64,000 nucleotides of DNA from Cadophora sp. MPI-SDFR-AT-0126 (lineage: Eukaryota; Ascomycota; Leotiomycetes; Helotiales; Ploettnerulaceae): NCBI GenBank assembly GCA_020747065.1, contig JAGMVK010000021.1:1-64000 (forward strand), written 5' to 3'. Positions 22,714 to 29,424 of the stretch are shown one piece after another. Within the stretch, counting starts at the first letter, position 1, and each line of letters begins with the position of its first letter. The notes under the pieces were generated by a model. It saw only the letters and a program-made list of their open reading frames with translations. It had not been told where the DNA came from and searched no databases. The translations under genes and the position numbers were made by a program.

Positions 22714-22715
22714 TA

Positions 22716-22780
22716 CAGCTAGGAGCGAATTCGGTGTCCTGTCTGATTATACTCTTTGGACAGTTCTGAGCGCACAGACC
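22716..22780 (+). repeat. Left terminal inverted repeat
   Basis: 65 bases, starting CAGCTAGGAG and ending GCGCACAGACC; inverted partner at 29357-29422. Confidence 0.85.
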
Positions 22781-22864
22781 TTCACGTGATGATGACTGCT
22801 ATCCCAAAAGCCGATTTTGCGTCCGCAGCGTTGTCAGCCATTAACGACTCTACTTATCACCATA

Positions 22865-23484
22865 ATGGCTCCAAACCTGGCAGTCTCAACGCATAAGCTT
22901 GTCGAAAATGTAATTATCAGTAAGTTACAAGGCGATCGAGGACCCACTGATAAGCAAACAGCCAGTATGGCCCGCTGTTCTACACGTACAATACGTCGCC
23001 ACCGACGCAACGTCCTCCTCTACGGATCAACAAAAGCTCCACCAAATGGCGCTGGCCGACCCAGGACTATCACACCTCCTATGTTGAGTGCTTTGTGCGA
23101 CAAGCTCTCCTTCACTCCCTTTATGCGCCTTAAACAGATCGTCACTTTTCTCCGCGGCGAGTTTGGAGTCGAAATGACTCGTCACAGCGTCCGTAGAGCT
23201 TTACGGGGTGTCACTTTCTCGAAGGAAACTACACAAAATATCGCTCAAGAGCGTAATGCAGACCTACGAGACGATTACTCATATGAAGTATCCTCCCTCC
23301 GCTCAGATCAACTTGTTTTTCTAGACGAGTCTGGATTAGACAAAACGATTGGGAACTCTAACAAAGCTTGGGCTCCCAGAGGGAAGCGGCCACGTCAAGT
23401 CAAGCGATTTCACCGTGGTCATAGATACCAGATCTTACCTGCCTACACCCAGGCTGGTATCATACATTTCCGAGTATATAAAGC
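22865..23484 (+). pseudogene. Tc1/mariner-type transposase, truncated (5' half)
   Basis: The frame from ATG 22865 reads MAPNLAVSTHKLVENVIISK and then has a helix-turn-helix region (TASMARCSTRTIRRHRRN, GRPRTITPPM) typical of IS630/Tc1/mariner transposases. It continues through RHSVRRALRGVTFSKE to the first catalytic aspartate in QLVFLDESGLDK and the motif AWAPRGKRPR. After AGIIHFRVYK the frame leaves the family and stops at 23537-23539. The second Asp and the final Glu/Asp of the DDE/D triad are missing, so no active enzyme can be made. The break lies near 23480, where the sequence becomes the tail of a HET gene in the opposite direction. Confidence 0.82.
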
Positions 23485-23907
23485 TCTATACCTTTCTCTT
23501 TTGCTTCTTGACGAAAGTCACTTTCCCGCAGCACCATAGGTACAGGAGCGCCTTGGACAACGCAGACTACATCTCCTGGCAGGCTACTACCTCCAACGAC
23601 ACCCAAGTATCCCTCTTTTGTCAAGCAAAGACAGCGGCCACCTAAGGTATTAGAAAGACGCTCCAAGATTCCAGATTTCCTTGGGTCGGGGGGTTCGAAA
23701 CGACTATTCGCATCTATTGGAACCTGTAACCAAGATGACATGATTGTAGGAAGACGCTTAAGTTCGGCTGCCGTCAAATTTCCTGGGTGTGTCGAACTTC
23801 GATTTCCAATTATCGTGCGCCAGAAAACATCAGTGCTATTCTTATTCGTTACTTTATCCGTGCCACCCAATAACTCTAGTTCAACGTCTTCCAAACACCA
23901 CCACAAA
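23460..23907 (-). pseudogene. Relic of a HET-domain (heterokaryon incompatibility) protein gene, 3' part
   Basis: The minus-strand frame carries the C-terminal signature common in fungal HET-domain proteins: DVFWRTIIGNR, then GGRCLCLTKEGYLGVV, SLPGDVVCVVQGAPVPMVLR, and a closing KGIELYILGNV. The usual tail after this point (a V-x-G-x-x-Y-V-H-G segment) is absent because the sequence passes into the truncated transposase. Upstream, the same frame meets a stop before about 23960 and no HET domain core is found, so the 5' part is lost. HET proteins act in allorecognition and cell death. This copy cannot encode a working one. Confidence 0.6.
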
Positions 23908-24218
23908 TTGAGCAGGTGTTTACGGCAGGGACTGTTCTCATGTACATGGGCATTTGAGAGTTACTTTGCCTCGATAAATAGCGGTTTCTCGAAGAACGTG
24001 CGAGAAGCGGTCTGGTCAGAAGAGCGCTGCTTCAGTCATGCCAAAGACAGGACTAACTTCGTTATGTTCCTCAGCGCTGTCTGCCCACATGCATGGGATG
24101 ATGAACGAGGAAGAAGGGATATGACATAGTTACTCTGACCGTTCAGCTTTACTCCTTGATACCGTCGACCAGAGTGGACAAACTTGCTCGTCGCCTGGAC
24201 ATGGCAACTACGCTAGGA

Positions 24219-27200
24219 TTACCAGCGTCTTCCTCGAAGCATGAAGATGAAGACACAACCACCAGCGACACCTGCAATAACGCTTAAAGGCACGATATCG
24301 GCTGCAGAGGGTCCCAGCTTCCTCATCGTTTTGGACAGCTCAAACATCCATCCTTGTGGAAAGCCAGTGGGTTTTGTCCGAAGATGATTTATTTGAGGTG
24401 GCGTCGGAGCGATGACATTGAGTGGATAGCAAGACCGTGGCTGCAACTCAACGTTGTCGTTTGGGATGCCAAAGATGACAGCACCGTCAGGGCTGGTTCC
24501 GTCCGGGTTACGCAGACCGTGAAACGGGTTCCACCCCGAGACATCTCTGAGTTTCTGGACGGGATTACACCCACGGCCCAAGCAGTCACCAAAAGGCCGT
24601 GAATTCTCGGGTTGATGCCAGCAGAATTTCTGTGAGAGTTGCATTCGTGGGAGTCCGCTCTCCCAAGGACGGCAGATCTCCTCAACGCAGCGGACAAGGC
24701 AAACAAGAAGGTTGCGTTTCGGCGGTACCTCTGACCATAAGCTGCACGGCCTCTGTACAGCCCGATCGGGTATCATCACTTGGCCGATGTCGCTGCCGAG
24801 AACGACCATTAAATTCGGATTCTTGGTCAGGCTCCACCAGTCAGGCCGTCCGCTCAAGTATGGAGGTGAAATCCGTCGATATCGAAAGAACGCTGTGCAG
24901 TCGCGAAGGTCGCCATAATCCCAGCCTCTCAGGCCCAAATCCGCTTTGAGCTCGTTGTGCTCGACCCTGACTCTTATGGCCTCTTTTCGATTCTCGAAGC
25001 ATTCAAGATAGAACTGAACAAGGTCGCTGAAATAATACTGCTTCACTTCTTCACCTTTCCTCCGAGATTCCCAGAGCACAGTCGTGTTGCAGGATCGAAT
25101 TGCCGCAAGGGCGGCATTACCGCCATCGGGAAGGAGATCTGCGTACCTGATATCGTAGAGCGCGTCTGATTGACTATGGTATCGAAAAAGGTGGGCATGG
25201 ACCAGATTCAGGAGCAGGCTAAGCTCTGGAACTACCCAGCCTGTCCTAGTGCTGCAGTCGTAGTACAATGCAGGGGTGTTGACCGATCTCTCAAGTTGCT
25301 GTTCGAGGTCCATCCGATTGTTTTCAAATCTTTGCCTTTGCGCTCTTGGGATGACGAATTTTGCCCCTATGGTTGTCCCGACCCATGGCGGTTTGATGCT
25401 GACAGCCACTGAAAGCTCTTCTCCTAATTGAAATCCGCGACTTGTTTCCTCTTTGGCACCGGAGGTTCGATTGGATGGTTGCTCTGTACCTAGCTTAAGT
25501 TGTGCTCGGTTCAGCCAGCCTAGGACGTGTCTTCCATGTAAGAAGGTGTTGATATCATCTTGTACCGGTAGTAAGGGGAACGAATTGATTTTGTCGAAAA
25601 ACTCGTCTAGTCCTCCAAGCGTTACATGCCACTGCGTACCGACAGAACCACGTGCAACTGGAAATACTGTGAGAGGTCCTTGACGAATGATTATACTCTC
25701 CTGGAATTCCACAGGAAAACGAGCGCCGGACGCTTTCAGGAGCAATTCAAACGACAGCTCAAGCCCATGCAGGTCTCCTCGCTCCGCAACTGGGAATCCC
25801 CATGCCAAAACAGAGCGGTCGAATAGCGAGGTCCAGCAAGACCCCAGGGAGAGTTCTGACTCAGGAATACTACGTATCGGGCGTAAAATTATCTCCGCAA
25901 ATACACCCTCGCTTCCGGTTGGTCCGGGTACAACTCGAAACTCTGTTTGGGAAAGTCCTATCGACTGCAGTGTCCCAAAACGAAAGGTCGATGCTAGCCA
26001 GGCCAACTGCTCAACTGTCTCAATGATTTCATGAGGGCGGCCGTCGATTTGTGCAACTAGATATTCTTCAAGTATCTCCAGCTGAATACTGTGACTGGGG
26101 CCATGCTGGTAGTCTATTTGCAGTAAGCACGATGCCAACCAAAGCATGAAGATCTTTAAATGAGAAAGCATTGCTGGACATAACGGGGACTAGAGAACTT
26201 ACAGCTCTTATCATTTTCCAGAGCGTATTTTACAACTTCAAGAATCTGTAATCCCGATTGAGGCCAAGTTTGATCCATATATGCTCTACAAGGTAGAGCT
26301 TGAGCCTGAATCAAGGTGCCAGTCAAAGTCATCATCTCTGACATGTCAGCTGTAGTATCAAGCTCCTGGGACAGAAACTTTCGAAGCTCGCAGTCCACGC
26401 GGACCAACATGGAGTGTATTGGTATCAAGTTGGTGTGTGGCAGCGAATGTCCAATAATTTCTCTGATATAGGATTTGGTGCTGGGGAAGATGAATCTGCG
26501 CAGGTCCTCGCTCAGCTGTTGAAATGGTGTAGACTGCTGAATAGCGAGACTGCTAAAAAGATCACGTGTGACCTTGATTTGAAGCTTATCCAATGCTTCG
26601 AACGTGCGCTCCACTTCCCCAAGGTCTTCGACCTCGTCACGAGCAAAAATGGCGTCATCGTAGGTCGGTAACGTTGGGGTGCTGTCTATTGTGTCCTTTC
26701 TGTCTGTTCTGTCCGCGGGCAGTGCCTTGAAGACGTAGTCTATCACACCAGGCGCTCTCGATCCTACCTTCCAATTCGGTAAGTATAAGTCAACGCAACG
26801 GGAAAAGGCAGAGTTACGAAATTTGGAAGATGTCCAAACAACTTCTCGATAGTCAGCCGCTGGGCGAAATCTTCAAGCAGTATGGCCAGATTCTGCTTCA
26901 GCCGAGAGTCTCCAATCTTGTCAGAGGCAGTCAGTATCAGTAGTCGCATCTCCGTGTCGCTAAGGATACAATCCGCAATATCTTTCATTAAGATATCTTC
27001 TTCCTCGGAAACTTTGGACCATGTTTTCGTAGCATCAAATAGGACCTGTCCATCAGGGAATGTAGAAGGCGCGTCACCGGCTGCCTGTGGTAGTTCCTCT
27101 TGAACTCTGGAAGTCCTGTTAACATCTGAAACGCTTTCTCCCAGAATATCTGTCAAGGAGGGTTCTGGTTGAGAGGTTGCTGCCAATTCAGTACCTGATA

Positions 27201-28512
27201 TGTCTTCTTGGGGCCTTATACGACGATGATGACCAATCGGAGGCTCTCTCTCGATGACTTCAGTCATGGGAGCCTCGAGTACCAATCTGAACTCCCTTCG
27301 GAGCTTTTCGGCGCAACGTTCTATCAAATTTACTGTTGCCACTGCCATAGAATAACTCCTTGTGGCACTCACAATGTGATCTAATGCACTCCATTCATCA
27401 GAACCAATTTTTTCCATGCCATGGCTCACATTGAAACGGAAGTATCTGTCAGCAACGGTCATGTCGCGATTTGAGCGAGCGAACATCTCCGCTGTCCTCT
27501 CAGATTCAGTTGCAATTGCCGTCAAGTATTGCATCATATCAAGTAGCTGTGTTGGAACAGATTGCAGCCGAGCAGTACCAGAGCCGATCGATACCAAGCA
27601 AGCTATGTCTGCCTCGGGCCAGATTTCCTTTGCTATCTGAACGGTATGGTACACCGGATTGTTTGCCCCCATCCCTCCATCCACATATTTCTGTTGATAA
27701 GGCCCTATAGAAACAGGGTCAAAGAAGCTTGGGGCTGCAGATGTTGCTCGAGCAGCCTCCCAGATACGAACCTGTTGGTCTCCTCCCAACGGCGAAGCAT
27801 GATAGCTGGAGAATAGTTCGATACGCGAATCCACGACACTAGTAGCGACAACAACTCTGTTTAATATTGGTTAGCGATATTGTCATTGAAAGAGTGCATA
27901 ATATTCCATACGTGACTGCGGACCGCAAATTCGCTTCCCGCAGGAGGACATCTTGATCAAGATCTCGAGAAAGAAGGATCGATTTGACAGCCTTCTCCAA
28001 AGCTTCAGCGCTATAGCGAGATTTTAGTCTGCCTCGGATGTCGACGGCGTGCATGAGTTTTCCAGAAGTCTTTCTGAAGATTTCCTTCTGAAACTCAATG
28101 TAGACATAAATACTCTCTTCAACAGTCATACGCAGGCGGCCGAGCATGAGTGCAATCAGACTTGAATATACGGTCAGCGGGGTTGACTTTGTGAATGGTG
28201 AATTTCGGCGCAACTGCGAAGGTGCACAGAAAGAACGAAGATTATTCGCGCAGAGCTGGAGTAGACTTGCCCACCACTTGAGGAACCACATATGAGATCA
28301 AACACATCGCATGGCTTTGGGGGTGATTGAGGATCGATAGATCTCATGATCGCCTGCAGAATTAAAAGCTCAGAAAGACCTCGCACGCCGCCACCATCTA
28401 GATTGTGTTGTTAGTATGATTGCCAGAACTGGACGAAAGTCATACCGAGACTTAGTAAACGGAGGCCATCCCTCGCCGCAGGGGGAGGTGCAGATGAGGC
28501 AGATGAGGCCAT
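24219..28512 (-). CDS. Patatin-like phospholipase with large C-terminal extension and terminal membrane segment
   Basis: Six exons on the minus strand (28512-28446, 28397-28271, 28160-27912, 27856-26768, 26708-26203, 26113-24219) give 1310 residues. The patatin fold is complete: oxyanion loop DGGGVRG at 23-29, nucleophile elbow GSSSGG at 60-65 (Ser62), LIALMLGRLRMTVEE, and the catalytic Asp in KYVDGGMGANNP (Asp206). Patatins are acyl hydrolases of membrane lipids. In fungi many sit in NLR-like proteins, but here no P-loop or NACHT motif is seen. After residue 330 comes a helical region, then about 630 residues of a fungal-specific domain (SLFDRSVLAWGFPVAERGD, QWHVTLGGLDEFFD) and a hydrophobic end (VPLSVIAGVAGGCVFIFML) that may anchor it in a membrane. 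Intron 2 is GC-AG and splits the active-site loop. The join at 26767-26709 is the weakest; without it the protein stops at 26764. Confidence 0.8.
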
Positions 28513-29356
28513 GATGTCGTTGAATCAATGATTGGCGTTCAGAAGGTAATTATGAGGCAGACGGTTTCAGCACTGCTCTCTGCAACGAAGTCTATCGTCG
28601 GAGCGTGAGAAAGAGAAAATCAGGCTGCGCCGCTGATCAATTATGTAATCCAATTGCGCACGTGCCAGCTGACAGATTCAGCTCTCATTTCAGCATCAAG
28701 GAAGGGGATGCTAGCTCGCCAGATAAGGCCTGGGCTGACGCCTTCTGCGCGTCTATTGGTGAACACATGCGGAGTATTACAGTATCACCGGCGGCTTCCA
28801 AGACCGATAGCACCCTGATGTGGCTTTTCTCGTGGACAAATGATCATGCCAGGATTTACTCCCTGTAATACCACAGGATTAACGATATCGAAATAGGAAT
28901 TATAGTGATGGAACTGCATCATTGAGGAGAGAGAGAGAGTGTGTGTGTATATTCTCTACATCTTCGAAGTAACGATGCTCGCTTTTGTGCATCCGCTAGG
29001 ATATGACTTAGTATCCAATGTCGTATATCACGCATCTTTATATTTGTTCTTACCCAGATTGTCAAACACAGATATGAAAGGGCTTGGCTCCAAAGATTTG
29101 CCGTTCCATTCCATGTGTTTTCGTACTTTCGATGGATTGAATCAGTGACTGTAATCCATCTAGTAGAAGCCGTTGGCCTCAAAGCCAGTTTTAGGGTCGT
29201 AGTTTGTAAATGACCGTTCATGTTGAGCCCGAAACAATGTCAATCGTGTTGATGGTGTAGAATTCATGTCTGCGAGCAGTTTTGAATGTCAGTCACACTC
29301 CGAGACCAAGGTCTGCCATGTATGGCTTCTTGTCATCATATGACGTCACCAGTAGT
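28513..29356. other. Right arm of the element upstream of the patatin gene
   Basis: Presumed patatin promoter. It includes a (GA)n(GT)n tract at 28926-28949. I looked for the missing transposase C-terminus here and did not find it. Confidence 0.4.
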
Positions 29357-29422
29357 GGTCTGTGCGCCCAGAACCGTTCAAAAGAGTACAATCAGACAGG
29401 ACACCGAATTCGCTCCTAGCTG
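29357..29422 (-). repeat. Right terminal inverted repeat
   Basis: 66 bases; the reverse complement starts CAGCTAGGAG like the left end. Confidence 0.85.
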
Positions 29423-29424
29423 TA

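Follow-up and report, generated by a model that had tools for sequence, protein, structure and literature searches.

A probable non-autonomous Tc1/mariner-type unit carrying a complete patatin-like gene in Cadophora sp. MPI-SDFR-AT-0126

How do fungal recognition genes of the HET and patatin types, which differ from one strain to another, get moved around? This question is raised by a segment in the genome of Cadophora sp. MPI-SDFR-AT-0126 (Helotiales, Ploettnerulaceae; 54 Mb, 38 contigs), in which a patatin-like gene and a relic of a HET gene lie between transposon-like ends. Has a small cut-and-paste element taken up genes of this kind, or did ends and genes come together in another way? The segment occupies positions 22714-29424 of the window, i.e. 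the 64,000 nucleotides of C14:1-64000 that were analysed. With a probability of roughly two in three, we regard it as a non-autonomous Tc1/mariner-type unit, the interior of which has been replaced by host-type DNA, and as one of three paired units in the genome.

The segment is bounded by genuine paired Tc1/mariner-type ends. The terminal inverted repeats, as expected of an element of this superfamily, measure 67-68 bp and share their initial 35 bases (33 once the TA is set aside). Their identity amounts to 92.8% over 69 alignment columns, the alignment taking in one base beyond each border. Both outer borders read TA, and the window contains two occurrences of a 20-base end sequence where chance would give 0.01. 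A sequence-only reading of this DNA had described inverted ends with TA borders, a 5′ part of a transposase, a whole patatin gene and a HET relic; all of these were confirmed, with the lengths given here and in Table 1.

Inside the left end lies the 5′ part of a gene for a DDE_3-type transposase, the enzyme that is likewise expected of a Tc1/mariner element. From the start codon at 22865 the homology runs up to 23485, where it stops directly past the residues HFRVYK. The fragment is up to 84% identical to full-length Tc1-type transposases of about 330 residues (84% with P0001), and the final ~120 residues are missing. In a query frame opened one codon early, at 22862, the DDE_3 domain was found with E=2.1e-6 and 28.1 bits, slightly below the curated cut-off of 28.6, the domain being truncated. 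Since none of the 120 transposase relatives listed aligns with the segment outside 22791-23485, the C-terminal part is absent; a search for it across the window gave chance matches only. The segment thus lacks the complete transposase of an autonomous Tc1/mariner element. At the junction with the cargo the two homologies possibly share a short sequence. As a separate observation, the ratios used to detect repeat-induced point mutation (RIP) are RIP-like in 22714-23485 despite the open frame (TpA/ApT 1.00; CpA+TpG over ApC+GpT 0.99), and not RIP-like in the whole segment (0.68 and 1.26, respectively).

For the patatin-like gene we built a model of six exons (minus strand: 28512-28446, 28397-28271, 28160-27912, 27856-26818, 26767-26203 and 26113-24219), which contains no stop and requires one GC-AG intron. 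Its product matches Pfam Patatin with E=4.4e-25 at residues 20-217, and the motifs DGGGVRG, GSSSG and DGG, which we take to be catalytic, are intact. The deposited model P0121 (876 residues) corresponds to the C-terminal part of our protein from residue 438 onwards and is therefore devoid of the patatin domain. No near relative of the whole protein was seen among the best 120 of 714 matches, the next best being 26% identical over 49% of the length. A protein search of the own genome returned 25 matches, five from the gene itself and 20 with identities of 22-57%. The HET relic alone found no match in Pfam. It does match 15 other places in the genome (best E=2.2e-8), and the frames scanned at two of them carry the Pfam HET domain (3.9e-30 and 1.3e-28), which supports the HET identity of the relic.

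The ends belong to a rare family. When the 54 Mb were scanned with a 27-base degenerate pattern (TACAGCTAKGARCRAAWTNGGYGTCCT) allowing up to three mismatches, nine sites were obtained, and none with the reversed pattern as control. A looser pattern gave ten sites with three in the control; the added site, on C34, sits at the three-mismatch limit and was dropped as being at control level. Six of the nine sites form three inward-facing pairs, on C14, C20 and C7, with TA at every border, whereas about 0.005 inward-facing pairs within 7 kb are expected for nine randomly placed sites. In alignments over 80 bases the C14 ends reach a score of 109 when compared together, against 63 or less with every other site, which supports the earlier proposal that foreign genes are the cargo of a single Tc1/mariner-type unit; for the C20 ends the values are 76 and at most 57. 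Many solo ends with full elements of their own, the picture that would have spoken against that proposal, were not seen, and the search for further copies with these ends revealed two additional gene-bearing units with cargo other than patatin. In the C14 and C20 units, each end contains an outer block (TACAGCTA-GAGCGAA-T-GG-GTCCT) as well as an inner one (near GAGCGCACAGACC), an arrangement that would fit a transposase binding two sites per end. BLAST with single C14 ends recovers just the two C14 ends, and with an unpaired end on C1 just that end itself. As such searches are too insensitive, the site count rests on the pattern searches, which may miss ends with insertions or extra mismatches. 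Viral contigs scanned for the end pattern gave no match.

Table 1. Features of the C14 segment and members of the end family elsewhere in the genome.
Feature	Position	Strand	Size	Remarks
Left terminal inverted repeat with TA border	C14:22714..22780	+		Outer block TACAGCTAGGAGCGAATTCGGTGTCCT, inner block GAGCGCACAGACC
5′ part of Tc1/mariner-type transposase	C14:22865..23485	+	206-207 residues	Open frame, start of DDE_3
Transposase/cargo junction	C14:23463..23490	.		Transposase and HET homologies overlap by some bases
HET gene relic, C-terminal part only	C14:23463..23960	-		Matches to own-genome paralogues
Complete patatin-like gene, six exons	C14:24219..28512	-	1313 residues	Own gene model, Pfam Patatin
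Region upstream of patatin gene, inside right end	C14:28513..29356	.		No transposase sequence recognised
Right terminal inverted repeat with TA border	C14:29357..29424	-		Pairs with left end
Paired unit	C14:22714-29424		6.7 kb	Patatin gene and HET relic
Paired unit	C20:78847-81451 (L022:1348-3952)		2.6 kb	Complete HET gene
Paired unit	C7:351783-353149 (L026:4784-6150)		1.4 kb	157-residue gene model
Unpaired end	C33 (L024:4519-4588)			Beside an unidentified gene
Unpaired end	C1 (L044:164-233)			Beside an unidentified gene

The HET gene of the C20 unit, which NCBI annotates as one protein of 695 residues (Pfam HET, 1.2e-13), is separated from the two borders by about 280 and 235 bp. Its nearest relative in another source is 55% identical. 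The gene model of the C7 unit has one intron; the protein is weakly similar to PPPDE peptidase (E=0.0012) and LRAT (E=0.0024), both below the curated cut-offs, and found no match among solved structures. It may tentatively be called LRAT/PPPDE-like. Among the 120 transposase relatives none revealed transposase sequence in the C20 or C7 unit, the sole match being that of the metagenome protein P0036 to C20 by way of its HET tail. A whole transposase is absent from all three paired units, and the cargo differs in each. Pack-TYPE elements are recognised by paired ends that enclose host-type coding DNA but no whole transposase, and this is the arrangement seen here. The other mark of that group, a source copy of the cargo or several loaded copies, was not found in the genome, where patatin was searched for by protein only. 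On the DNA level the C7 unit and the stretch 23486-24220 each occur once, and the C20 unit recurs, apart from its own two ends, in short stretches of the HET gene with 67-84% identity. As these searches uncovered no close source, the cargo did not arise by recent duplication of a gene that the genome still contains; its source may have been lost, or may lie in another strain or species.

Taken at face value, these units suggest the following course. A once complete element would have lost its inner part, including the last third or more of the transposase gene, to host-type DNA that brought in the entire patatin gene and a portion of the HET gene next to it. The two ends retain their outer and inner conserved blocks. 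Loading might have occurred through gap repair that was interrupted and drew on a foreign template, or through two neighbouring copies that lost their inner ends and whose outer ends were used jointly. The data favour neither route, and the junction at 23463-23490 suits either. Ends and cargo would then have inserted as a single unit with a related transposase acting in trans; insertion of the loaded unit as such is the simplest way to read three paired, loaded units.

A number of observations weigh against this course. To begin with, three of the nine end sites (one on C33 and two on C1, the second of them weak) are unpaired, so single ends do occur. The ends of the C7 unit are not reciprocal best matches, as they score 40 mutually and 54 and 50 with C1, which renders this unit less certain, and its right end has diverged, with TAAAGC instead of TACAGC. 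The supply of a transposase is a further difficulty. Of the 12 genome matches of the transposase fragment, the fragment itself included, the best other one, on C10, is 48% identical over nearly the whole fragment, and around it no convincing inverted ends and no match to the end model were found. A second copy of the loaded unit was sought in the own genome and none was seen, and in the single strain analysed no empty site was seen, so that the TA target duplication is not proved. Finally, the single outside parallel is ambiguous. P0036 (216 residues) comes from one metagenome contig of 8247 bases. Its first 171 residues are 77% identical to residues 73-243 of the transposase P0003, and its tail is a piece of a HET domain, best matched (61% identity) by P0247 from Cadophora sp. 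M221 (NCBI). Judged by its predicted sequence, P0036 is a second case in which this transposase family has been cut and joined to HET sequence; being one protein on one contig, it may represent either a real capture or an assembly chimera. The other 119 of the 120 relatives showed no match to the HET, patatin or C7 proteins compared.

The unpaired ends bring to mind two separate insertions that happen to face each other, with their inner parts lost and the enclosed gene being a resident of the locus. In plants, a published Pack-TYPE model even has DNA between neighbouring insertions mobilised (PMC8903248). For the present units, however, this scenario is quite improbable, as a mere nine end sites in 54 Mb would have had to yield three facing pairs, and since the paired C14 and C20 ends resemble each other more than they do any other site. 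Partners of the three unpaired ends were sought by a mismatch scan over about 20 kb, which gave none that was accepted, and by aligning the 6 kb that follow downstream, which gave none above shuffles. Two candidate partners, one near C33 with 7 mismatches and one near the second C1 site with 6, lie in open coding frames and were rejected. The second C1 site itself, C1:3436063, matches an end model built without it (E=1.2e-4) and was not counted as a unit. Beside the other C1 end, about 190 bp outside it and on the side away from its interior, there is a decayed transposase (L025:3953-4770), with a decayed DUF3435 gene and a patatin paralogue within 60 kb of it.

The missing second copy and the missing matching transposase are also what one would see if the loaded unit had never moved, foreign DNA having entered an already inserted Tc1/mariner copy by nested insertion or by end joining with filler DNA. 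The sharp junction that cuts the transposase frame speaks for such an event as well, and TA would likewise remain at both borders. We consider it unlikely, although a serious contender. It would have had to happen in all three paired units, each time removing the transposase wholly or for the most part while sparing the ends, and in C20 a whole gene sits closely between the ends.

On the side of the transposase, the C10 gene (L023:2375-3346) has an open frame with a DDE_3 match of 2.6e-32. Around the other 10 relatives in the genome nothing convincing in the way of ends was found; in L012 there is an AT-rich 31-base inverted match (E=0.001). The intact transposase with the same N-terminus that the sequence-only reading had suggested looking for did not turn up in the genome, the best candidate being the C10 gene. 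Close full-length relatives of the fragment do exist in other collections. Movement in trans is thus possible in principle but unsupported in this strain, where the search around the C10 gene found no matching ends. Since no matching intact transposase was found, the unit is probably stationary in this strain at present.

Patatin-like phospholipases are also listed among the accessory genes of Starships (PMC12506042), and the genome contains 42 DUF3435 matches, some of which lie on C20 at distances of about 29-49 kb from its HET unit. Could patatin and HET genes be Starship cargo, and the Tc1/mariner ends incidental? We regard this as very improbable. Starships use a DUF3435 tyrosine recombinase and direct repeats (PMC12506042), whereas C14:1-64000 yielded no DUF3435 match, and the single one listed for contig C14 is weak and distant, at 723086. 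Moreover, core-like genes flank the segment on both sides. The matches on C20 form three groups on the minus strand (C20:110676-130475); given this neighbourhood, the C20 unit may itself sit inside a Starship.

The preferred reading, a non-autonomous Tc1/mariner-type unit with replaced interior, has relatives in the literature. The cargo-bearing unit proposed by the sequence-only reading is supported, movement of the loaded unit is not shown, and the statement in that reading that no system of this kind had been described was wrong. ToxTA (formerly ToxhAT) of Bipolaris sorokiniana, Pyrenophora tritici-repentis and Parastagonospora nodorum is a likely non-autonomous Tc1/Mariner element with TA duplication and 74-bp ends that carries ToxA and is itself found in Starships (PMC12506042). 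By this description it shares with the Cadophora units the TA borders, long ends (74 bp versus 67-68) and genes foreign to a transposon. It differs in its size of 14 kb, its location inside Starships and the empty sites from which its authors inferred mobility. The Cadophora units, in contrast, measure 1.4-6.7 kb and bear other cargo, with three loads in one family, and their mobility is inferred. In P. tritici-repentis, a transduplication placed a captured open reading frame (ORF) in a Tc1/Mariner element present in 46 repeats (PMC3538342). This is again a host-type ORF between Tc1/Mariner ends in an ascomycete, whereas the Cadophora units are single, hold a different gene each and lack a whole transposase. 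Furthermore, hAT elements with captured histone H3 have been reported from other fungi (PMC6710886) and Pack-Mariners from rice (PMC8903248). Pack-TYPE elements likewise consist of non-autonomous superfamily ends around host coding DNA, those of the Mariner type mostly at low copy number. The plant examples considered, however, carry short pieces, several of them 97-98% alike to a gene elsewhere (PMC8903248), whereas the Cadophora units hold whole genes for which no such second copy was found.

In view of ToxTA, the Pyrenophora transduplication, the fungal hAT captures and the rice Pack-Mariners, the general idea is already known. What we have not seen in the literature searched is a single rare family of ends that encloses a different complete gene in each of three units, including two genes of an immunity type (patatin and HET). 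Among the matches listed from open-licence papers, no title or opening of an abstract mentions HET or patatin genes as cargo of a Tc1/mariner unit, and neither the end sequence nor the strain name was found in the text of such papers.

Going one step further, one might suppose that in this fungal lineage the family consists of small shuttles. They would carry complete genes of the types involved in self/non-self recognition and cell death (patatin, HET) and would depend for movement in trans on transposases that relatives supply in certain strains only, with the C20 unit possibly riding inside a Starship and the same having happened elsewhere, as P0036 hints. The P0036 junction renders this idea slightly more likely, but it stays a tentative one that we would sooner doubt than adopt. 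With two clear units, one outside hint and one unclear unit (C7), no cargo preference can be claimed. In fungi, Tc1/mariner units with gene cargo may escape notice, as each is present once and repeat finders need several copies. If the shuttle idea is true, small one-gene cut-and-paste units would offer a simple route of gene movement beside the very large Starships.
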